From NCBI GenBank assembly GCA_003010405.1, contig PJLO01000009.1, forward strand, positions 62,001 through 126,000: DNA of 64,000 bases, in the 5' to 3' direction. A model generated the notes under the pieces. The model was not told where the DNA came from. It searched no databases and saw nothing but the letters and a program-made list of their open reading frames with translations. Origin of the DNA: Acidobacteriota bacterium (GTDB lineage: Bacteria > Acidobacteriota > Terriglobia > Terriglobales > Acidobacteriaceae). Shown piece after piece: positions 14,933 through 26,555 of this stretch; position 1 is the first letter of the stretch; every line of letters begins with the position of its first letter. The position numbers and the translations under genes are program-made.

Positions 14933-15634
14933 ATGATTAAAGCTAGAAACGTGCCCAAAGCTGTCGTGTACGTCGTAACTCTGCTGACAGTGCTTGCGGC
15001 ATCATGTGCCGCGGCACAAGAAAGCTCCTCCCGAGTAGGCCTCCCCATTCAGGGTACGGATTCCAGCGTTGATAGAAACATCGTGCCGCCCGGAACGGCC
15101 AAGCAGATCGGCCAAACGCAATCAACTCCGCCCGCCTCCAAATGGGGGCCGAACCGAAGTTCGACTGCATCTTCGTCCGCCGTGTCTCAACAGAATCACT
15201 CGTCTGTTTCGAGCAATGGCTTGCAGCACAAGGCGCAGACGACGTCCCAATCCGGCCACCCCGTCGCAACCCGCGGGGCGCGCGTGGGTGACAAGCACCA
15301 AGGCGCAGATTCGAAGAATTCAAATCAGAACGCTGTGCGCAAAACCAGCCTGCAGGGTTCTGTCGCGAAAAACGCGCCACCATCGGAATTCAAGGAGCCG
15401 TCGTCGTTCAGGAAGGAATACTCTCCCGCGATTGGAAGATCGCGACCAGCATTCACCACCCACACTCACATGTCTCGGACGAGCACGAAACACAAGCGGG
15501 CAGCATCGAAACAGAGCGCATCCTCGAAAGGACAGCACCCGGTGAGAAACGGTCTCACGGGAGCCAAGCCTTCAAGAGACAAGGCCCCGAAAAACAGGCT
15601 CAGCCAAACCAAATCCAAGGTTCTTATTAGATAG
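14933..15634 (+). CDS. Secreted basic low-complexity protein of unknown function
   Basis: A 233-residue protein with an N-terminal signal peptide at about residues 1-29 (core VVYVVTLLTVLAASCAAAQ). The rest is rich in Ser, Gln, Asn, Lys and Arg and is probably disordered. No domain was recognised. The ATG follows the WaaE-like gene by two bases, so it belongs to the exopolysaccharide transcript. It may interact with anionic glycan or peptidoglycan, but this is speculative. Its 3' end overlaps the convergent activase gene by eight bases. That it is coding is supported by the signal peptide, the spacing and the lack of other signals, not by homology. Confidence 0.65.
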   Translation: MIKARNVPKAVVYVVTLLTVLAASCAAAQESSSRVGLPIQGTDSSVDRNIVPPGTAKQIGQTQSTPPASKWGPNRSSTASSSAVSQQNHSSVSSNGLQHKAQTTSQSGHPVATRGARVGDKHQGADSKNSNQNAVRKTSLQGSVAKNAPPSEFKEPSSFRKEYSPAIGRSRPAFTTHTHMSRTSTKHKRAASKQSASSKGQHPVRNGLTGAKPSRDKAPKNRLSQTKSKVLIR

Positions 15635-18600
15635 AAACCGTTTCCCTTTCCTGTTGTGGCTGCACGAGAGCAGGCGAACCGCAACGGAAATCGCCCGAGG
15701 AATTCAGGTGGGAGAGGAAGAAGTGCATCGTTTCGATACGAAGCCGAAGCGAACCTTGGGGCTTGTTTTCATCCAGATCACGGAAACAAAAATGAGGTTT
15801 GCCAGCACAGACAGAGATCTGTTCGATGACATTGCTGGCAAAAGCATCATGCCCACACTTGAAGCTCGACAGCTCGACAGGAATCAGATTCGGGTGACGG
15901 GCCATGAACTTGGCTGCCCACAACTTCAGGTTTGTATTGGCAGAAACTGAGTTCTTCCATACGTCGGAAATATCCAAAGGCGAACTGATCACACCGGCTC
16001 CAACCTCTTCACCAAAGAGGTTGTTGAGAACATCTTCATCCAGTGGAAGATAGGCCTGTGAAAACACGGGATAGCCGAGCTTTTGAAAAGACTCCAGAAT
16101 GTCCTGATTGACACCTGGATCGTGGTGATACGGTCTGGCAAGCAGAACCAAACCTATACGTCCTTCGCGTTCGAGCCTGTCCAGCGCATCGCGCGAAACT
16201 TGACGCATTTTTAAATCAAACTGCTCTTGAAAAAGAAATGCCTGCTCCACCGCCTCCGCATTCTCTTCCCAACTCAGACCTGCTAATACATCCTTCCAGC
16301 ATTCAAACATCTGGAACCGGAAGAGACGCCGATCCGACAGATTCAGTATTGGGTTCAAGTAGCCGATACCGGTCTCGCCAAACCAGTTGCGATTCGCGGA
16401 AAACGCAGCTTTCACTGCTTCCGGCGTTGCCGCCCCGGTCGGACACGAGCTCACGCCCGCACACTTCTCCAGATTATTGACCACAGTGTCAATCATTGGA
16501 AAGAAAATGTAATCAAGAACGTGAGCGTCCCTGTTCTTTTGCAACAAGTGGAAGACGTGAGAAATGCACAGCTTTGCCGGGAAGCATGGATCGACCGCCG
16601 CAAAACCAACCGCCTCTTTGAAATGAGTAGGGTTGGTCGTAGCAGAGAAGATAATGTTTTCCTTCCGAACACCCAGGCCCTGCAGATAAGAAGTCAGCAA
16701 TGGCGCATAGGCGTACAAGTTCAAAACCCTCGGAATTCCAATGCAGATCGAGGAACGATCGTGAAGCCGCTTCCCATTCCGTTTCGTCGCACTAGTATGA
16801 GTAACGAGCGGCACGTCCCGCACCGACCACGCCTCACGCGCTGCAAGCGACGGAATACAGGGATTTGCCGCACACACGGCAGACCAGGCGGAATTAACTT
16901 CGCGCGCCTTGCTGACGTCAAGAGCCTCGCCGCGCTCACAACTTGCGATTATGACGCGATTCTGCCCTGACGACTCTTCGAATTGCGGAGTAGCGCACGA
17001 GTAATCGATAAAGGTGCGGTGACATTTGTTGGCACAAAACGAACAGCGCGTAGATTCGTCGCGCCGGATCGTGTAACGCACGCTCGATAGCTGATCGAGA
17101 GAGATGAACCGGCTGGGCCGCTCGGGCGAGTACCGGCGAATTGCCTCCAGTGCAGCGCCAATAGAACCAGCCTCTCCGCAATTCGGATGCAGAAAGATTT
17201 CCGGCTCGCCTTCTGCGAAGTAGTGACTGCGAATGAAATCTATCTCAGCTTTGACCACGGCGAGATTGCGCTGCGTCCCCCCTTGCAGCAGAAAGCGCTT
17301 TCCCAGCTTTGCAACGTTGGACACGCCGGCCACGTACAGAAACACATTTTTCGGCAGCACGGCGGCCAGGCCCGCAATCAGTTCCTCGGGCCGCCAGCCC
17401 TGTCGCTGAAAGTTCACAATGTCGGACTGAAGGAACACGGCACAGCCATAGCTGAATACGGGCATGCGATTGGCACGGAAAGCAGTTTCCGCAAAGGTCT
17501 CAATCGGAATACCGAGCGTCTCCGCCGTAGCTTGGAGAAAGTATCCATTTCCGGCCGAACACTGCGTATTCAGCCTGAAGTCCTTCACCGCGCCATTCTG
17601 CAGCAGCACGATCTTAATGTCCTGCCCACCGACGTCGATGATGGCGTCCACATCGTGCCTGACCTGCAAGGCGGAGTGGGCGTGAGCGACGGTTTCAACC
17701 AGCGCCACGTCTGCGCCAAGAACCCGCTGTAGCAAGTCCTTCGAGTACCCTGTGATGGCCGCTCCGAGCACCGATAATCGGACGCCACGCCGGCGAAAGC
17801 GATCATACAATTCCTGCAAAACAGCAATTGCATCGGCAATCGGGTCGGCGCGGGAAAGACGGTAAGCGCTTGCCAGCAGTTGGCCATCAGGAGAAAGCAA
17901 AACGGCCTTGGTCGAGGTAGAACCTCCGTCGATTCCAACAAACACGGGGATCTCGCCGGATGTGAGAGCTACGTCCGGGCGCGGGGCAATCGTGTAATCG
18001 CGAAGGAACTTCCGCAACTCATCCTCAGTTTTGCACAACCCCTCGGTGCCACCAGCGATCTCCAGAGCCGACGAGGAGTTCACAAATTGCGCCAGCGGTT
18101 CGATTCCCAGGTAGTTGCCAACCTCCGCAGATTCGGTGCGCCCGTATTCAAGGGCTCCAATCGCGCCGAAGTACTGCGCGTCGGCAGGCACTGAAACGAG
18201 GGTTTCCAACGCGACATCTTCTGGAATCGTCACGTTCTGGTCCCGCCACATGCGCGCCAGGTGCTGTCGCCATGCCTCGCGCAAACCGGGCAGGAAGACA
18301 TGAGGTCCGCCCAAAAGCAGCACCCGCGGCAGCAACAGATGCCCGCGCGTGAGAACGGTGAGGTTTTGCAGCACAATCGCGTTAAACAAAGACGCGATCA
18401 ATTCGCTGGGGGGCACACCCTGTTTTTGGAATCCTGTGATATCGGTTTCCGCAAACACCCCGCACTTGCCGGCAACCGGATGAATCGGCACTCCGTCAAA
18501 TTTCTGTTGGCGGAGTTGATCTGGGCTCAGATTCAACTTGGCAGCGATCTTGTCAATCACAGCGCCGGTACCGCCTGCGCACTTGTCATTCATCGAAGCC

Positions 18601-19004
18601 AGTTTTTTCTTCTGTCCAGCGTGGCCTGTCTCTTTAAAAACGATGATCTTTGAGTCCTGACCGCCGAGTTCTATGACGGAGTGAACCTCAGGAAAAAGCT
18701 TTTCCACGGCCATGCTGACGGCCGTTACTTCCTGCACAAACTTTGCGCCCAGGATTCCCGCGAGCGCGCCTCCCCCGCTGCCTGTGATGAAAGCGTAGGC
18801 AGTTCCTGTCTGCATTCCGAGCGAGTCCTGCAGTTCCTGCAGACAGGACAAAAGGGTTTCGGCCTGGCGCCCCTCATGCCGGCGATATGTACGGAAAAGC
18901 AGATCGTCTCCATCCGCGGGGCAGGCGACGACCTTTACGGTCGTCGATCCCACGTCAATGCCGATCCGGTACTGCTTCAATTTCCTGGGTCCACTATTCA
19001 TCAC
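15627..19004 (-). CDS. Double BcrA/BadF/HgdC-type activase with DUF2229-like region
   Basis: A 1125-residue protein with two tandem ASKHA-type activase domains like HgdC/BcrA/BadF. These are ATP-driven one-electron donors that reduce 2-hydroxyacyl-CoA dehydratases and benzoyl-CoA reductases. Domain 1 starts IGIDVGSTTVKVV and has cysteines at about 142 (KCAGGTG) and 181 (KCGVFAE). Domain 2 starts VGIDGGSTSTKAV at about 356 and has cysteines at about 482 (QCSAGNG) and 521 (GCAVFLQ). Both halves therefore keep the pair that binds the bridging Fe4S4 cluster in HgdC. A CX2CX3C set follows at about 654-661, then a DUF2229-like region (FFPMIDTVVNNLEKCAGVSS, LARPYHHDPGVNQDILE). It is the last gene of a unit with a radical SAM and an HgdB-like gene. 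The substrate is unknown. Confidence 0.85.
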   Translation of the reverse strand: MMNSGPRKLKQYRIGIDVGSTTVKVVACPADGDDLLFRTYRRHEGRQAETLLSCLQELQDSLGMQTGTAYAFITGSGGGALAGILGAKFVQEVTAVSMAVEKLFPEVHSVIELGGQDSKIIVFKETGHAGQKKKLASMNDKCAGGTGAVIDKIAAKLNLSPDQLRQQKFDGVPIHPVAGKCGVFAETDITGFQKQGVPPSELIASLFNAIVLQNLTVLTRGHLLLPRVLLLGGPHVFLPGLREAWRQHLARMWRDQNVTIPEDVALETLVSVPADAQYFGAIGALEYGRTESAEVGNYLGIEPLAQFVNSSSALEIAGGTEGLCKTEDELRKFLRDYTIAPRPDVALTSGEIPVFVGIDGGSTSTKAVLLSPDGQLLASAYRLSRADPIADAIAVLQELYDRFRRRGVRLSVLGAAITGYSKDLLQRVLGADVALVETVAHAHSALQVRHDVDAIIDVGGQDIKIVLLQNGAVKDFRLNTQCSAGNGYFLQATAETLGIPIETFAETAFRANRMPVFSYGCAVFLQSDIVNFQRQGWRPEELIAGLAAVLPKNVFLYVAGVSNVAKLGKRFLLQGGTQRNLAVVKAEIDFIRSHYFAEGEPEIFLHPNCGEAGSIGAALEAIRRYSPERPSRFISLDQLSSVRYTIRRDESTRCSFCANKCHRTFIDYSCATPQFEESSGQNRVIIASCERGEALDVSKAREVNSAWSAVCAANPCIPSLAAREAWSVRDVPLVTHTSATKRNGKRLHDRSSICIGIPRVLNLYAYAPLLTSYLQGLGVRKENIIFSATTNPTHFKEAVGFAAVDPCFPAKLCISHVFHLLQKNRDAHVLDYIFFPMIDTVVNNLEKCAGVSSCPTGAATPEAVKAAFSANRNWFGETGIGYLNPILNLSDRRLFRFQMFECWKDVLAGLSWEENAEAVEQAFLFQEQFDLKMRQVSRDALDRLEREGRIGLVLLARPYHHDPGVNQDILESFQKLGYPVFSQAYLPLDEDVLNNLFGEEVGAGVISSPLDISDVWKNSVSANTNLKLWAAKFMARHPNLIPVELSSFKCGHDAFASNVIEQISVCAGKPHFCFRDLDENKPQGSLRLRIETMHFFLSHLNSSGDFRCGSPALVQPQQERETVSI

Positions 19005-19033
19005 AAACTCTCACGCCGAGCCAAAAGGCTCGT

Positions 19034-20326
19034 TTATTCCATGTTCCCTCGAACCCCTTGGAATCCGTGCATGGCCTGTTTTGCAAGCCAACGGATCACT
19101 CGGGCATCGTTGTAGCAGAAAGCGAGAATGTGATTCAGTGTGGAGAAACAGGTTTTCTCGCAGCTCTGTTTCATTACCTTGAGCTGGGCGGGATCCATCT
19201 TCGGATTTTCCACCGTGCCCCAGTCGTAAGTCGCCGAGTAGGTCGGGAAACAGGGAGCCAGCGTACCATCAACGCGAATAATTAGGCTGTTGAGTCCGGC
19301 GCGGCAGTTCCATTGGTGCAAGTCATTCTTGATGAAGCTCTTCATCTGGGCCAGCCGTTCCACTGAGTTCACCATCTTCCAGCCGGAATTCTGCTTGTCG
19401 ATCAGCCAATCCACCAGTTCACCAATGCGTTCATGGTCTTCCTCACGAATGAATACCGGACTGTCCTCGAGCTTTTGGAAGTTTGACTGCTCCATCATCG
19501 GTGTTTCGCAGATGTGGTAATCGGTGGCGATTCCGTTATCGTGAGCCAATTCGGTCAGCATACGCACATCTTCGAGGTTATTCCGGCAGATGTTGATATT
19601 TAAAAAGACCGTATAGCCATATTTGTATTGTTTGCGAATCAGGTACTCGAAATAGCTCCGAATGGGAACCATTGCTTTCGGCAGTCCTGGCTTGATATCC
19701 CAAGCATCCGCAGCAAGATTGAAGGTCGCAACACCAGCATCGGCCAGCCGATCGATCACATCCGGTCGCAGCAAGCGGCCATTGGTCGGCAGATACACCC
19801 AGAAGCCTTTTTTCGTCGCATAATTAACAATTTTATGAGCAAAATCCGGGCGCAACAGCACCTCTCCACCCATCAGCGCAAGAACGCGGCAGGTGGTCGT
19901 GTGCAGCCAGTCGATTGAGCGCCTGGCAGTCTCTTCGGTCATTCCTTTCACCTGATTGTCATAGGCCCAGCAATACCCGCATTCGACGTTGCATTTCCAT
20001 TCATTGAACAGATAAGCAATCAAAGGGTGAAATTCTCCAGGCATAATTCGCGACTTAAAGAATGGAAACATCCACCCGCGCATTGCGTGCCAGATCTCGT
20101 GCTTTTTCCATTGCCGATTGCCGTTCTTGGGAAAGTACGGCTCGTCCGGAGCATTCAGCAGGTCCGGCCTTTGCGGAAATACCGGCGTGGGCAACTCGAG
20201 CGTCTTGCCTGCGGGAAGAGGTGCGAGTTCGGAGCGCATGCCATGCGTCAACTGATCGCTGGTGGCAGCATCCAGTCGTGACCGGGGAGAATTGGGTGTC
20301 GCGACGAGCCTAGGTAGATCAGACAT
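19034..20326 (-). CDS. Radical SAM protein with C-terminal cysteine-rich (SPASM-like) region
   Basis: A 430-residue radical SAM enzyme. The cluster motif is CX3CX2C at about residues 112-119 (KCNVECGYCW). The barrel continues with ALMGGEVLLRPDF, a variant of the GGE motif, and YLPTNGRLLRPDVI. The C-terminal third carries further cysteines (WNCRAGLNSLIIRVDGTLAPC and CEKTC) of the SPASM type, which usually bind auxiliary Fe-S clusters for peptide or complex substrate modification. The first eight bases overlap the end of the HgdB-like gene and the activase follows after 29 bases, so it is embedded in that unit. The N-terminal 90 residues are not recognised. The reaction is unknown. Confidence 0.85.
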   Translation of the reverse strand: MSDLPRLVATPNSPRSRLDAATSDQLTHGMRSELAPLPAGKTLELPTPVFPQRPDLLNAPDEPYFPKNGNRQWKKHEIWHAMRGWMFPFFKSRIMPGEFHPLIAYLFNEWKCNVECGYCWAYDNQVKGMTEETARRSIDWLHTTTCRVLALMGGEVLLRPDFAHKIVNYATKKGFWVYLPTNGRLLRPDVIDRLADAGVATFNLAADAWDIKPGLPKAMVPIRSYFEYLIRKQYKYGYTVFLNINICRNNLEDVRMLTELAHDNGIATDYHICETPMMEQSNFQKLEDSPVFIREEDHERIGELVDWLIDKQNSGWKMVNSVERLAQMKSFIKNDLHQWNCRAGLNSLIIRVDGTLAPCFPTYSATYDWGTVENPKMDPAQLKVMKQSCEKTCFSTLNHILAFCYNDARVIRWLAKQAMHGFQGVRGNME

Positions 20327-22049
20327 GATCGTTCTCCTGTGATGAAATCGTAGGAATTCTTAAACCACTCGAACTGCGTTGGCGAACCGAGAAAGTATCG
20401 CGAGCGGTCCGTTCAGATTGCATTTTTTCGCGTACATCCAGCAAAAAATTTGCCGATGTAGAAATCACTCCATCGCGCCGGGAAACCCGGTAAGATGCGC
20501 TTCGCAGTTCGGGCTGTTCGGCCAAGAATTCACGGATCTGTTCGATTGTAAGCTGCGATGAGCGCAGCACAGTTTCAAACTCTTGACGGGCGCTTTCTTT
20601 CGCGTCGGCGAGCGCCATCTGCACTCGGCTGTATGCATGAATCTCACCGTCACCGGCTGTTTCGATCGAGGCGAAGATCATCTCCGGATTTCTCTCCACC
20701 AGCGATGCCTGAACCGCGTCGGATTGCGTCGACGGAAGGCAACCAAACGGCTTCAGCGCCAGTACCATGTGGCATTTGCGAGATGCTGTGTAGTAAATAT
20801 TTTTTCCGACTTCGAGATGCCCCTCGCCACCACGCAAGAAAGTAGAATAGTGAGGCGCAGCGAGCGCTGCCAATTTCTTCTGTGGAGACAGGGGAGTCGT
20901 AATGTCGCCGAGAGCACTCGCAAGGCGCTTGTAATGCCGCTTATATATGTACTCGGTAGCGGAGAAAAGCCCTCGCTTCCAAACTATTTTTGCGCGAATG
21001 CGAAAAGCTTCCATTGGTTTTGACCAGGGGTGCTCTTGCCCCGCAAGCCGAAGTTGCAAATCAAGCCGTTGTTTGGCAAGAAATAGAAGATACAACAACC
21101 AGCAACTGATTGGTTCAACTGCAACTTCTGCCCCTTCCCGCTGCAGAAACTCGAACATGCGGAAATTGCCATCGCCCTCGGTTAGTTGTGCCCAGAACTC
21201 TCCAATGATCTTCACCAGAGGCCTTAACCGAAGCCGGTCAACTTCCATGGTGGACAGTATTTGACGGCACTTGCGCAGCTCCGTCAGCAGCGCGCTTCCA
21301 TTCAAGTGCACGTGTATTTTGCACAGAGTGTTGAGCACGCGAAACGAGGCGTGCGAGCGATGCCGCTGTAACCAACCACGTAGCCATCTGGGAGCCTGTT
21401 CCGCCAGATCGAAATGAGGCGTCGTCCGGAAGTACTCAACAAGTTCATCCACCAAGGCGACAATCATGCGATCGGCATCGCCAGGCACCACTTCGTAGGC
21501 GCCAAGCTTTCGCTGCAGGTCGTTGAGTAGATCACCAAGCACTACCGCATGCAGGGCGGATAATCCAAAATCCACCGAAAACTGCATTCCCGAATGTCCG
21601 GATGAGGCCTTTACACCGTGTTCCTGAAGAAAAAGTATGATACGAAATCCCGAAAAACCTGCCGCATGCAAGGCCGAGCGAATTTCATCTTCATACATGC
21701 CGTATCGGCAAGGGCCAGTGGTACCGGCCGTAAAGTACACATAATTTTTTACAATTTCTTCTCGTGATAAGCCTTCGGCTTCAAGTTGGCGCAAGCGCTT
21801 AATCAGATTCCCTGCCACGAAGTAGGCGGGATTACACAGGCCACTGGCACAATACTCTTTGCCGATCTCATGCGCTTCCCGATCAGCCTGCGGCAGATAT
21901 TCCGCGAGGTAGCCGCTCCTGTTCAGCACTGCCTTGATCAGCCGTTCATGCTTCCAAGTCAAGCCTCCCAAAATAATGGTGACGTGTTCGCGTTCACTGG
22001 AGTTGAAAGGAGGTTCCTGCAGACGTCGGTAATGTTCTATTCGCTTCAT
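20319..22049 (-). CDS. HgdB/BcrC-like 2-hydroxyacyl-CoA-dehydratase-type protein (activase-linked)
   Basis: A 576-residue protein matching the HgdB-like portion usually found in very large activase fusions. It starts with ILGGLTWKHERLIKAVLN. Cysteines lie at about residues 67 and 72 (EYCASGLC), 114 (TTGPCRYGMYEDE) and 437 (KPFGCLPSTQSD), the positions where such proteins bind Fe-S clusters. The first gene of a three-gene minus-strand unit, it overlaps the radical SAM gene by eight bases. An AAGGA stands just before the ATG. It would accept electrons from the downstream activase and act on an unknown substrate. The family is rarely characterised, so a dehydratase function should not be assumed. 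Confidence 0.78.
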   Translation of the reverse strand: MKRIEHYRRLQEPPFNSSEREHVTIILGGLTWKHERLIKAVLNRSGYLAEYLPQADREAHEIGKEYCASGLCNPAYFVAGNLIKRLRQLEAEGLSREEIVKNYVYFTAGTTGPCRYGMYEDEIRSALHAAGFSGFRIILFLQEHGVKASSGHSGMQFSVDFGLSALHAVVLGDLLNDLQRKLGAYEVVPGDADRMIVALVDELVEYFRTTPHFDLAEQAPRWLRGWLQRHRSHASFRVLNTLCKIHVHLNGSALLTELRKCRQILSTMEVDRLRLRPLVKIIGEFWAQLTEGDGNFRMFEFLQREGAEVAVEPISCWLLYLLFLAKQRLDLQLRLAGQEHPWSKPMEAFRIRAKIVWKRGLFSATEYIYKRHYKRLASALGDITTPLSPQKKLAALAAPHYSTFLRGGEGHLEVGKNIYYTASRKCHMVLALKPFGCLPSTQSDAVQASLVERNPEMIFASIETAGDGEIHAYSRVQMALADAKESARQEFETVLRSSQLTIEQIREFLAEQPELRSASYRVSRRDGVISTSANFLLDVREKMQSERTARDTFSVRQRSSSGLRIPTISSQENDHV

Positions 22050-22451: not shown

Positions 22452-25400
22452 CTATTTCCTGCGTTTCCGGAACAGCACGTCGAACGACACCACGCCGGTC
22501 TGGTCACGCGCTCCAACAATGGAAACGTCCTTGTTGACGTTGTATTCAAACTGAATGATCTGCTGCGCGGACTGGTTCAGATTGGTGATATAGGTAAGCG
22601 TCAGCTTGTTGGAAACCGATTGCTCGACTGTCACCCGCGCCAGGCCGGCGTTGGTCGGACCGCCCACGTTCGGATCGATTTTCAGCCGGCTCACGCCAAA
22701 TAGTTTCTGCACCCTGCTGCTCACTGTCGCGTTCAGAGCCTGCCCAATCAGCGCCGAGGATGCGCTCTCCGTAATCGTTGGCTGATATTGTGAAGTGCCC
22801 ATCATCGCAGGATTCGCTACCTCCTCGGTGGTGCGTCCCAACGCGAGCAACGAAATAATGTCGCTGCTTGAGAGTGGAGGATCAGAGCGATAGGAGGGAG
22901 TCAGCCTGTTTATCGAACCATGTAAGCCCAGCGTAATGTCGTAATCGCGCACCCTGGCTGAGAGTTCCACATCGATTGCCGGCTCGATCCGCACCGGGTT
23001 GGTGAACGTAATGTCGCCGCGCTCCAAATTATATTTGGTACCGCTGAAGGAGATCGTCCCTTCCAGCAGATTCACGCGCCCCAAAACTGTTGGACGCATC
23101 GCGGTTCCGCGTATCCGCAGGTCCACATTTCCGCTCAATCGTGCAAGCGAGGTCTGTACCTCCAACTCCGGCGTCGAGGTCACATGTAAATCCAAGCGCA
23201 CGTCGTTGAGCGGTGAATCGATCTTCTGTACCGGAGTGCTTTGCTTTCCTTTAATAAGATAAGTTGCGAAATCAAATTGCGGATTCACGCCCAATCGCGT
23301 CACTGTGATATCGCCCGAGAGCAGCGATTTCTTGGTCGTGCCTGTCAGCGCTATGGACGCGTTAGCGGTTGAACTCAACCCCTCCGGATAGCGCAATCGA
23401 ATGTCGCGTCCTCGGGCCGAAAGGTTGAACCCCAGCCCCTGCGAGGGAGAGAAGGTGATGAATCCTGCGCAATGAAGCAGCCCGCCACCGGTGCGCGCCG
23501 TAAGCTCCTGCACTTGTAAACGGTCTTCATTAAAACTCAGCGTACCTGTAACATCGCTCAGTCCGTTCGGAAAATCGATATAGGCGATTGCGCCATTCTC
23601 AATGCCCATTCGTCCACGTACTATGGGTTGCGACAGCGTCCCGTTCACCCGCACATTGAAATTCGCAACTCCGCCCGAAATCAGACTTGGATCGAACGTC
23701 TCCAGCAATTTCAGGTTCACACTGCCCGAGGCACGCACATTCACTTCACGCTTGCCGCCCAACTGCAACTGCCCCCGAACCTGCAGGAAGCGAGTACCCT
23801 GTTCGGCCGACAGGCGGAACTGCTCGACAGTCAAAACCTGATTTGCCATTTTCAGGTGAATCGGTCCATCGTTTTTGACAATGATGCTGCCGTAGCTTTC
23901 AACCCAGCGCTCCACTACCACGTCCGCCGTAATGCTTTTGAGCTGACGCGCCTCGCCCGACGCCTCAATGCGCATCTTCAATTCCGAGGTTCCCTCGGGA
24001 CGACGGGGAAGATAGGCCGCAAGCAACGATCTCAGATCCGCGCTCTGTGCATCCACCACAAGACGCATCGGCAACTGGTCGCGCAGATGTATCTGCCCGT
24101 CGATCTTCACCTCACCTGTCTGGAATCTTGAGCGTGCGGTCAGCATCAGCTCCGAACCGCGCGTAACTGCATCCACGTTCAGGTCGCCAATTGGACGCCG
24201 GTTCACTGCAACATTTCGCAGGTTGATCCGCCCATTAATGACCGGTGCGCCAGGTGTGCCCGACCCGCTAGCCTCGAAGCTTGCCTGTCCCGTCACGTGC
24301 AGATTACGCTGGCGCACAGCGCGCAGATTTTCAATCTTTATCTCGGTTCCTTTCAGTGCGAAACCAAACTCCTGCGTCTCCACATTGACTCGTGCATCGC
24401 CACGCAATTGCATCACGTCGCTCTTCACGGCAATGTTGCGCAACTGCACCTGGTTTTCAGTGAAATTCACATCCGCGGTGGCCACAGGTACCGCTTGGCC
24501 CCACGCGCTGCTATCCTTCAATGCGATAAAACCGCTTCCACTTAAGTGGCTTTCCGTGCCCTGCACCTGCACGTTGCCGCTCATTTTCCCTGTAACCGGA
24601 TAGCTTGATCCTGCCAGTCCCTGTAATTCAGTGACGTCGACGTTCTCCACTTTCGCGCGCACCGCAAAAGGCAGTGTCGTGTCGTAATCGCCGTTCGTCA
24701 GAGCCACTCTGGCGTCCAGATTGATTCGTGAGCCTCCTCGCAGCAGCACGCCATTTCGCAACGTCTCCTGCGTCAAGGAGTACTCCACATCGCCTTCGAG
24801 CAAATCCCAGCTGGTGCGTACCGCTCGTCCCACTCCGACTCTACGGCCGCCCCGCCTCTCCACCTTTCGCAGCACCGTTGTAAAGTTGTGAAGTTCAATA
24901 TGCCCTGCAATCGTAGGCGAGCTGAGCTTCCCCCTCACGGTTCCCTTGAATTGCGCGCGTCCGCCAAATTCGACTGGCAACTCCTTCTCGCGCGCGCCGC
25001 GCCAGGACCGAATTATCGGCACCAGTTCCGTAAAACTCGTCGTCGCCGCATCCAGCTTCAAGTCTGAGTTTGCCGAAAGCTGACCGCTGGCCTTAAGACG
25101 CGCCGCCCGCGTGCTTACCTCCACACTGTGCAGTTGAACCGATGGCCCTTTGAGATCCACTGTGCCACGCAGCGCCGCCGTTACTGGCAACTCTCCTGGC
25201 CGCATTATTGGAACTATGCGCATGTCTCCATCTATTTGCGCATTCTGCGGACTGCCGCGCCAATTCACCTCCAGCGTGCCCGTTGCTGAACCAGCCAAAT
25301 GCAGCCTGTCCAGCGGCAGTTCACGGGTCGTAAAGGCGCTCATAACCTGCGTTAATTGCGCGCCCGTAACTTTCAGACTGATGAGCCCCAGCTGCTCCTT

Positions 25401-26555
25401 GCTCTGCAAATTGCTGACGGACAACTTTCCGTGAACTGTACCGCCCAGCGCGGCAGCGAAAATCGAAGGCGCTTCGAAATGCTCACGGTCCAGAGAAAAG
25501 ATCAAACCGCCATTGATTTTTTCCAGCCGAGAAATCTGATTTTTCCAGGTCACTCCAGTGGCTTGCGCCTTGCCGGTCACGGCATATTCCGCCCGATCCG
25601 ATCGATAGCTTCCTTCACCACTGAGCTGCACCTCGCCGCTTTGCAGTTCGCGGAAATCAACGAGGCGCGCAAGTTCACCAGCATCGCCCGAGGCACGATA
25701 AGAAAAACGGACTACTGGAGCAACAAGTTGACTCACCGCTCCGCTGGCTTCCGCCCAGGAGTGCCCCAAAGTCGCTCGCAAACGCGGCACATCCAAGCGG
25801 TTGCTGTAGAGCCGGAACTCTGCCTCGGCGCCCAGTGTCAGCGGCTCCCGTTTCGGCAGTTGTATCCGCACCTGCCCCACCTTCGCCAGCCCGTCGTAAT
25901 GACGGTCCGAAGCCCGATAGTTCAACTGCACCGCGACGTTCTCGGCCGCGCCCTCCAGTTTAATTTTGTCTTCGTTCCATTCGAGTAGGCCGTCTCTCAG
26001 CTCGGCATGGTCTATCGCAAGCCGTACCAACTGTTTGGCCTTGTCCGCCGGCGTTCCGCGCGGTAATTTCGGTTCGGGCAAATTCGTCGAACCGTCCTTG
26101 TACACATCCACATGCGCCAGTGGACGCACAAAACTCAGCTCCTGAAAAGATACGCGTCCGCGTAATAGAGGAGCCCATTTCAACCGCATCTGAATCCGCT
26201 CGGCATTAAGCAGCGGAGCCTCCAGCCGCGACTCTTTTCCGTGGATCGTTAAGCCTGCCAGTTCAAACTGCAAGTGAGCAAGATTCCAGCCCACGCGCTG
26301 CAACTCTACCCGGCCTCCGGTCGCGTGCTCTATTTTCGCGACCACATAGTGCCGCACCCGTTCTTGAAACGCCGGGCTCACCACGTAACGAGCCAGCGCC
26401 AGCACTGCCAGCGCAAACGCCAGGACAACAATTCCAACCCAAAGCAAAATCCGTACACGACTGGAGGGTACGCCGGCAACCGGTAGGTTCTCCGCCACCT
26501 TCCTGAGGGAAGATTTACTTTTTCCGGATTTTTTTTGCTCTGGCTCTTCGCTCAT
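22452..26555 (-). CDS. tamB: TamB-like translocation and assembly module protein (DUF490)
   Basis: A 1367-residue protein with an N-terminal transmembrane anchor (about residues 34-53, WVGIVVLAFALAVLALARYV), a very long region of beta-strand repeats of the AsmA/TamB type, and a C-terminal DUF490 domain containing DPPLSSSDIISLLALGRTTEE and GARDQTGVVSFDVLFRKRRK. TamB-type proteins span the periplasm and are linked to outer-membrane protein assembly or phospholipid transport. The SurA-N-like and Omp85 genes precede it with almost no gaps, so the three form an operon. Its length is close to the E. coli protein (about 1260 residues). Confidence 0.92.
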   Translation of the reverse strand: MSEEPEQKKSGKSKSSLRKVAENLPVAGVPSSRVRILLWVGIVVLAFALAVLALARYVVSPAFQERVRHYVVAKIEHATGGRVELQRVGWNLAHLQFELAGLTIHGKESRLEAPLLNAERIQMRLKWAPLLRGRVSFQELSFVRPLAHVDVYKDGSTNLPEPKLPRGTPADKAKQLVRLAIDHAELRDGLLEWNEDKIKLEGAAENVAVQLNYRASDRHYDGLAKVGQVRIQLPKREPLTLGAEAEFRLYSNRLDVPRLRATLGHSWAEASGAVSQLVAPVVRFSYRASGDAGELARLVDFRELQSGEVQLSGEGSYRSDRAEYAVTGKAQATGVTWKNQISRLEKINGGLIFSLDREHFEAPSIFAAALGGTVHGKLSVSNLQSKEQLGLISLKVTGAQLTQVMSAFTTRELPLDRLHLAGSATGTLEVNWRGSPQNAQIDGDMRIVPIMRPGELPVTAALRGTVDLKGPSVQLHSVEVSTRAARLKASGQLSANSDLKLDAATTSFTELVPIIRSWRGAREKELPVEFGGRAQFKGTVRGKLSSPTIAGHIELHNFTTVLRKVERRGGRRVGVGRAVRTSWDLLEGDVEYSLTQETLRNGVLLRGGSRINLDARVALTNGDYDTTLPFAVRAKVENVDVTELQGLAGSSYPVTGKMSGNVQVQGTESHLSGSGFIALKDSSAWGQAVPVATADVNFTENQVQLRNIAVKSDVMQLRGDARVNVETQEFGFALKGTEIKIENLRAVRQRNLHVTGQASFEASGSGTPGAPVINGRINLRNVAVNRRPIGDLNVDAVTRGSELMLTARSRFQTGEVKIDGQIHLRDQLPMRLVVDAQSADLRSLLAAYLPRRPEGTSELKMRIEASGEARQLKSITADVVVERWVESYGSIIVKNDGPIHLKMANQVLTVEQFRLSAEQGTRFLQVRGQLQLGGKREVNVRASGSVNLKLLETFDPSLISGGVANFNVRVNGTLSQPIVRGRMGIENGAIAYIDFPNGLSDVTGTLSFNEDRLQVQELTARTGGGLLHCAGFITFSPSQGLGFNLSARGRDIRLRYPEGLSSTANASIALTGTTKKSLLSGDITVTRLGVNPQFDFATYLIKGKQSTPVQKIDSPLNDVRLDLHVTSTPELEVQTSLARLSGNVDLRIRGTAMRPTVLGRVNLLEGTISFSGTKYNLERGDITFTNPVRIEPAIDVELSARVRDYDITLGLHGSINRLTPSYRSDPPLSSSDIISLLALGRTTEEVANPAMMGTSQYQPTITESASSALIGQALNATVSSRVQKLFGVSRLKIDPNVGGPTNAGLARVTVEQSVSNKLTLTYITNLNQSAQQIIQFEYNVNKDVSIVGARDQTGVVSFDVLFRKRRK

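Follow-up and report, generated by a model that had tools for sequence, protein, structure and literature searches.

The closest described relatives of the locus reported here are the plasmalogen synthase PlsA/PlsR and the glycerol ester reductase Ger. PlsA/PlsR is encoded by two genes in C. perfringens and by one ORF in facultative anaerobes, and the C. perfringens genes produce plasmalogens in E. coli with no added partner (PMC12838417). Listeria is among the taxa listed with orthologues (PMC9702350). The Ger of Thermotoga forms alkyl ethers alone, and in the validated cases two activation domains accompany an alkyl-ether-forming Ger, although Ger and PlsA are indistinguishable by sequence alone (PMC13274423). 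In Acidobacteriota, Solibacter usitatus is proposed to use homologues of PlsAR, Tes and Grs in forming its brGDGTs (PMC10087280). The route to the sn-2 ether is described as unexplained (PMC8788747, PMC13274423).

The present locus lies in a window of 64,000 nucleotides (the whole stretch of DNA that was analysed), whose source is a 3.64-Mb acidobacterial draft genome of 98 contigs. The ORF coordinates were re-read in the window, and they give three tightly spaced genes on the minus strand, with the 8-base overlap that a sequence-only reading of this DNA had pointed out. HGDB (20319-22049, minus strand, 576 aa, ATG start) is an HgdB-like gene whose predicted product is the catalytic (PlsR-type) half of a glycerol ester reductase. 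RSAM (19034-20326, minus strand, 430 aa, ATG start) is a radical SAM gene, and ACT (15627-19004, minus strand, 1125 aa, GTG start) is a PlsA-type double-activase/DUF2229 gene. HGDB and RSAM share the 8 bp at 20319-20326, and 29 bp separate the RSAM stop from the ACT start. A perfect 6-bp inverted repeat, CGAGCC-AAAA-GGCTCG, occupies 19017-19032 in this gap. Some 400 bp lie between HGDB and the nearest large same-strand frame upstream (22452-26555), and the neighbor on the downstream side (14933-15634) is convergent, so HGDB, RSAM and ACT form a unit of their own.

ACT has two PF01869 domains and one DUF2229 domain (PF09989, residues 755-983) in Pfam. Both activase domains carry a cysteine pair (142/181 and 482/521) with the partners 39 residues apart, which is the spacing of the HgdC cluster ligands. 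A CX2CX3C motif at 654/657/661 lies ahead of DUF2229; it is kept in all 58 of the 58 ACT relatives and is also present in three fused PlsA-type proteins. HGDB has no domain found by Pfam, and its profile has no match among PDB sequences. Its tblastn matches lie in the C-terminal region of proteins that carry the annotation acyl-CoA dehydratase activase or 2-hydroxyacyl-CoA dehydratase, and in fold comparisons its AlphaFold model (mean pLDDT 80) resembles DCCP (Z 10.7, 4.9 Å, 280 residues) and 2-hydroxyisocaproyl-CoA dehydratase (Z 8.9, 4.5 Å, 275 residues). Profile, pairwise and fold comparisons place HGDB in the HgdB/DCCP fold and with the PlsR part of PlsA. Cysteines 72, 114 and 437 are invariant among HGDB relatives and are likely cluster ligands. 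The HGDB of the window's clade (20319-22049 in the window; L032, L107, L137) sits on a long branch and evolves faster than RSAM, with the invariant cysteines retained.

ACT and HGDB are collinear with a single longer protein. On the 1475-aa PlsA-type protein of Listeria monocytogenes, which served as the reference, ACT covers residues 5-973 (30%, E 1e-131) and HGDB covers residues 995-1406 (E 4e-15; profile E 4e-32), and the Haliovirga and Collinsella proteins have the same collinearity. The features of PlsA/PlsR recur here. ACT has two HgdC-like activase domains, each with two cluster cysteines, and CX2CX3C ahead of DUF2229; the separate HGDB is the HgdB-like reductase part, with homology to PlsR. 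The two activation domains (BB) are also the mark of Ger (PMC13274423). Judged by homology, ACT and HGDB together are a split plasmalogen synthase PlsA/PlsR, i.e., of the glycerol ester reductase Ger type. The sequence-only reading had recognized the two HgdC-like domains, the DUF2229-like part and the separate HgdB-like part; Pfam agrees on the first two, and the profile, pairwise and fold comparisons agree on the third. Its remark that no characterized system has this layout was mistaken for the activase/HgdB-like pair, which corresponds to PlsA/PlsR or Ger.

A clear HGDB relative is present in 39 of 396 sampled acidobacterial genomes, nearly always as a separate gene immediately upstream of ACT, and in one branch ACT itself is divided over two genes. 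The split between HGDB and ACT is ordinary for this subfamily in Acidobacteriota, which answers the earlier concern that the HgdB-like gene might usually be fused. Other PlsA-type proteins of Acidobacteriota are each encoded by one ORF and are 1.4-1.5 kaa long.

RSAM has a Radical_SAM domain (PF04055) with CX3CX2C at Cys 112/116/119, and four more of its cysteines are invariant (341, 359, 389 and 393). These had been described as SPASM-like. The first motif of a full SPASM domain (CX9-15GX4C, then CX2CX5CX3C and a final Cys) is indeed present as C341-x12-G-x4-C359, but beyond it only C389 and C393 are invariant, which fits one twitch-type cluster and not a full SPASM. On this cysteine pattern, RSAM probably has a single auxiliary cluster of the twitch type. 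Several known radical SAM classes were compared and set aside. RSAM lacks the B12-binding domain that would be expected of a cobalamin-binding class B methylase, PF04055 being its sole Pfam match. No NCBIfam equivalog fits it among its 25 best matches, all of which score below 54 bits; the HpnH model TIGR03470 gives 30.8 bits (cut-off 225), and the Tes model NF045702 (cut-off 450) is absent from these matches. Tes is also expected to have two CxxxCxxC motifs, and in RSAM only Cys 112/116/119 are so spaced. In a profile search of the PDB, Tes (7TOL) is the second-best match (E 4e-9), over the core domain only. Since the window's genome has a separate Tes homologue elsewhere (contig C61, L188:736-2379; 577.6 bits on NF045702), RSAM is not Tes. 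A fold search with the RSAM model returns many enzymes of unrelated function at similar scores (BlsE, PqqE, viperin), so the fold does not name the substrate. A membrane-anchor helix ahead of the core was rejected because its hydrophobic moment is inconsistent over the family. RSAM relatives were also sought in plasmid records, and none were found there.

RSAM relatives occur in 30 of the 396 sampled genomes, and the loci around them, together with 80 named loci, make up 112 related loci. RSAM lies beside HGDB and/or ACT in 47 of these and is alone in 38; the other 27 are not judgeable. It is on the same strand as the HGDB/ACT genes in all 47 linked loci, and three gene orders occur: HGDB-RSAM-ACT (15 loci), RSAM-HGDB-ACT (19) and HGDB-ACT-RSAM (4), plus incomplete arrangements where contigs end. 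The first, that of the window, is essentially limited to one clade, and the other two arise elsewhere. The linkage state changes about five times on the RSAM tree and six times on the HGDB tree, both quick trees with some long branches. RSAM and HGDB distances are correlated (r 0.83 over 35 triads; Mantel 0/2000 permutations), and in one genome, G337 (L063:6045-10587), HGDB, RSAM and ACT are all broken or partly lost. Most sampled genomes of the genus of G337 are without the module. A search for other recurrent neighbor families around these loci, including CoA metabolism, found none that recur. The association of RSAM with the ger genes is real: the pairing reaches well past this genome, and the view of the three genes as a functional unit is supported by the linkage, orders and strand. 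One named carrier of the module is a Granulicella record (L156), and the MAG bin_312 has two complete HGDB-RSAM-ACT operons (L107, L137). The solo RSAM genes of L057-L062 (f24 genomes) form a strongly diverged group; in most of them the matched frame contains a TGA, and these genomes also carry long single-ORF PlsA-type proteins.

Tes or Tes-like genes are present in 24 of the 24 sampled genomes with a main-clade RSAM versus 192 of 372 others, with kinship ignored in this count. The six genomes with the most diverged RSAM have no Tes or Tes-like genes. At L043, the sole locus with such a physical link, the genes RSAM, HGDB and ACT are immediately preceded by a Tes-like gene. Roughly half the acidobacterial genomes sampled have a member of a second family of Tes-like proteins (about 620-860 aa, ~320 bits), which is a candidate for iso-diabolic acid formation. 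A Tes-like relative of about 700 aa, which other listed genomes of the same family have, was not found in the window's genome. The co-occurrence with Tes, the Tes-like gene at L043 and the proposal for brGDGT synthesis in Solibacter usitatus (PMC10087280) suggest that RSAM is involved in ether or membrane-spanning lipid synthesis, where it may modify alkyl chains.

It is fairly likely that the operon encodes a split two-activase reductase of the PlsA/PlsR or Ger type together with a radical SAM enzyme acting on the same membrane lipids. With ATP as the driving force, the two activase domains would send low-potential electrons to the Fe-S sites of both halves (DUF2229 and HgdB-like), and these sites would reduce the ester carbonyl of an acyl chain bound to glycerol, so that an ether forms. 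Since two activase domains are present, the product would be an alkyl and not a vinyl ether. RSAM would take a hydrogen from an unactivated alkyl-chain carbon, assisted by its single auxiliary cluster, and a C-C or other modification of the chain would then lead to ether-bound, membrane-spanning (branched GDGT-like) lipids. The ester-to-ether activity in this organism, a lipid as the substrate of RSAM and the bond made by RSAM are all things that we infer. Its repeated association with ger genes in soil acidobacteria makes RSAM a good candidate for a step still missing from the synthesis of unusual ether membrane lipids. A bolder version, which we hold only tentatively and regard as somewhat doubtful, is that RSAM is a lipid enzyme of a kind not yet described, independent of B12 and reserved for the ether lipids that Ger makes, and that the operon is a compact branched-GDGT module; RSAM might, for instance, couple chains, cross-link them or methylate branched GDGTs at C5/C6.

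Other readings of the operon account for part of these observations. RSAM and the ger genes could be accidental neighbors, as the 38 loci where RSAM is alone might suggest, but the three orders on one strand in several clades, the joint decay in G337 and the correlated divergence strongly disfavor this, to the point that chance is very hard to credit. HGDB and ACT could instead act on something other than a lipid, such as a small CoA ester, which they would reduce in the manner of DCCP or the dehydratases, with RSAM in the same pathway. The HGDB fold is nearest to DCCP and to the acyl-CoA dehydratases/benzoyl-CoA reductases, and the Pfam names are generic; such a role is nevertheless unlikely given the full-length collinearity with PlsA-type proteins, CX2CX3C included, and the lack of recurrent CoA-metabolism neighbors.

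The sequence-only reading had suggested that the radical enzyme might mature the activated protein, and RSAM could do so by, for example, inserting or modifying an Fe-S cluster of the HGDB-ACT complex. Nitrogenase relies on the radical SAM maturase NifB, and the tight linkage with the 8-bp overlap of HGDB and RSAM would suit a maturase. Against it, the C. perfringens PlsA/PlsR is active in E. coli unaided (PMC12838417), 24 of the 39 sampled genomes with HGDB have no RSAM relative, and some genomes with RSAM have no DUF2229 protein. Since this Ger type is often present where RSAM is not, and RSAM sometimes where DUF2229 proteins are not, a maturase role is quite unlikely, and the suggestion is not upheld. 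The Elb route is possible in the RSAM genomes without a DUF2229 protein. RSAM might also finish the ester-to-ether conversion itself, for instance on a vinyl-ether intermediate or by enabling Ger at sn-2. Its specific joining to Ger genes in several clades and the unexplained sn-2 ether route (PMC8788747, PMC13274423) would favor this, but the Ger of Thermotoga needs no such help to yield alkyl ethers (PMC13274423). The occurrence of RSAM where DUF2229 proteins are absent also speaks against a finishing step, which appears improbable. Saturation of vinyl ethers is not a known reaction of radical SAM enzymes.

The split reductase with a lipid-acting RSAM, as favored here, has implications beyond this locus. 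Branched GDGTs are a worldwide proxy for past temperature and pH, and knowledge of their synthesis and decoration in acidobacteria is incomplete. A probable ester-to-ether reductase and an uncharacterized radical SAM gene in one short operon are a concrete, testable gene set.

HGDB and ACT are known as enzyme halves, and what appears to be new is the recurrent radical SAM partner. This partner of the ger genes is apparently new, although it may be identical to Mss. The paper that discovered Mss and Ger reportedly discusses modified ger genes. Tes (7TOL; NF045702) is a radical SAM enzyme like RSAM, but RSAM is shorter and has a single CX3CX2C motif. The GMGT synthase Gms is likened to RSAM by its description, as a lipid-acting radical SAM protein that has helices at the N terminus and auxiliary cluster(s) at the C terminus (PMC11186832); it is set apart, also by description, by having two auxiliary clusters where RSAM has cysteines for one. 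The Ger proteins of Thermotoga maritima (Tmari_0479) and Desulfatibacillum, hosts that have ether and membrane-spanning lipids, share the two PF01869 activation domains of ACT; the putative Ger of the present locus differs in that its parts are divided over two genes and a radical SAM gene accompanies them. PlsA/PlsR of C. perfringens, or the single ORF of Enterococcus, Lactococcus and Bifidobacterium, has the same two activase domains, CX2CX3C, DUF2229 and HgdB-like part, and in C. perfringens the same two-gene split (PMC12838417). Unlike in PlsA/PlsR, HGDB lies upstream and is longer (576 aa), and the operon includes a radical SAM gene.
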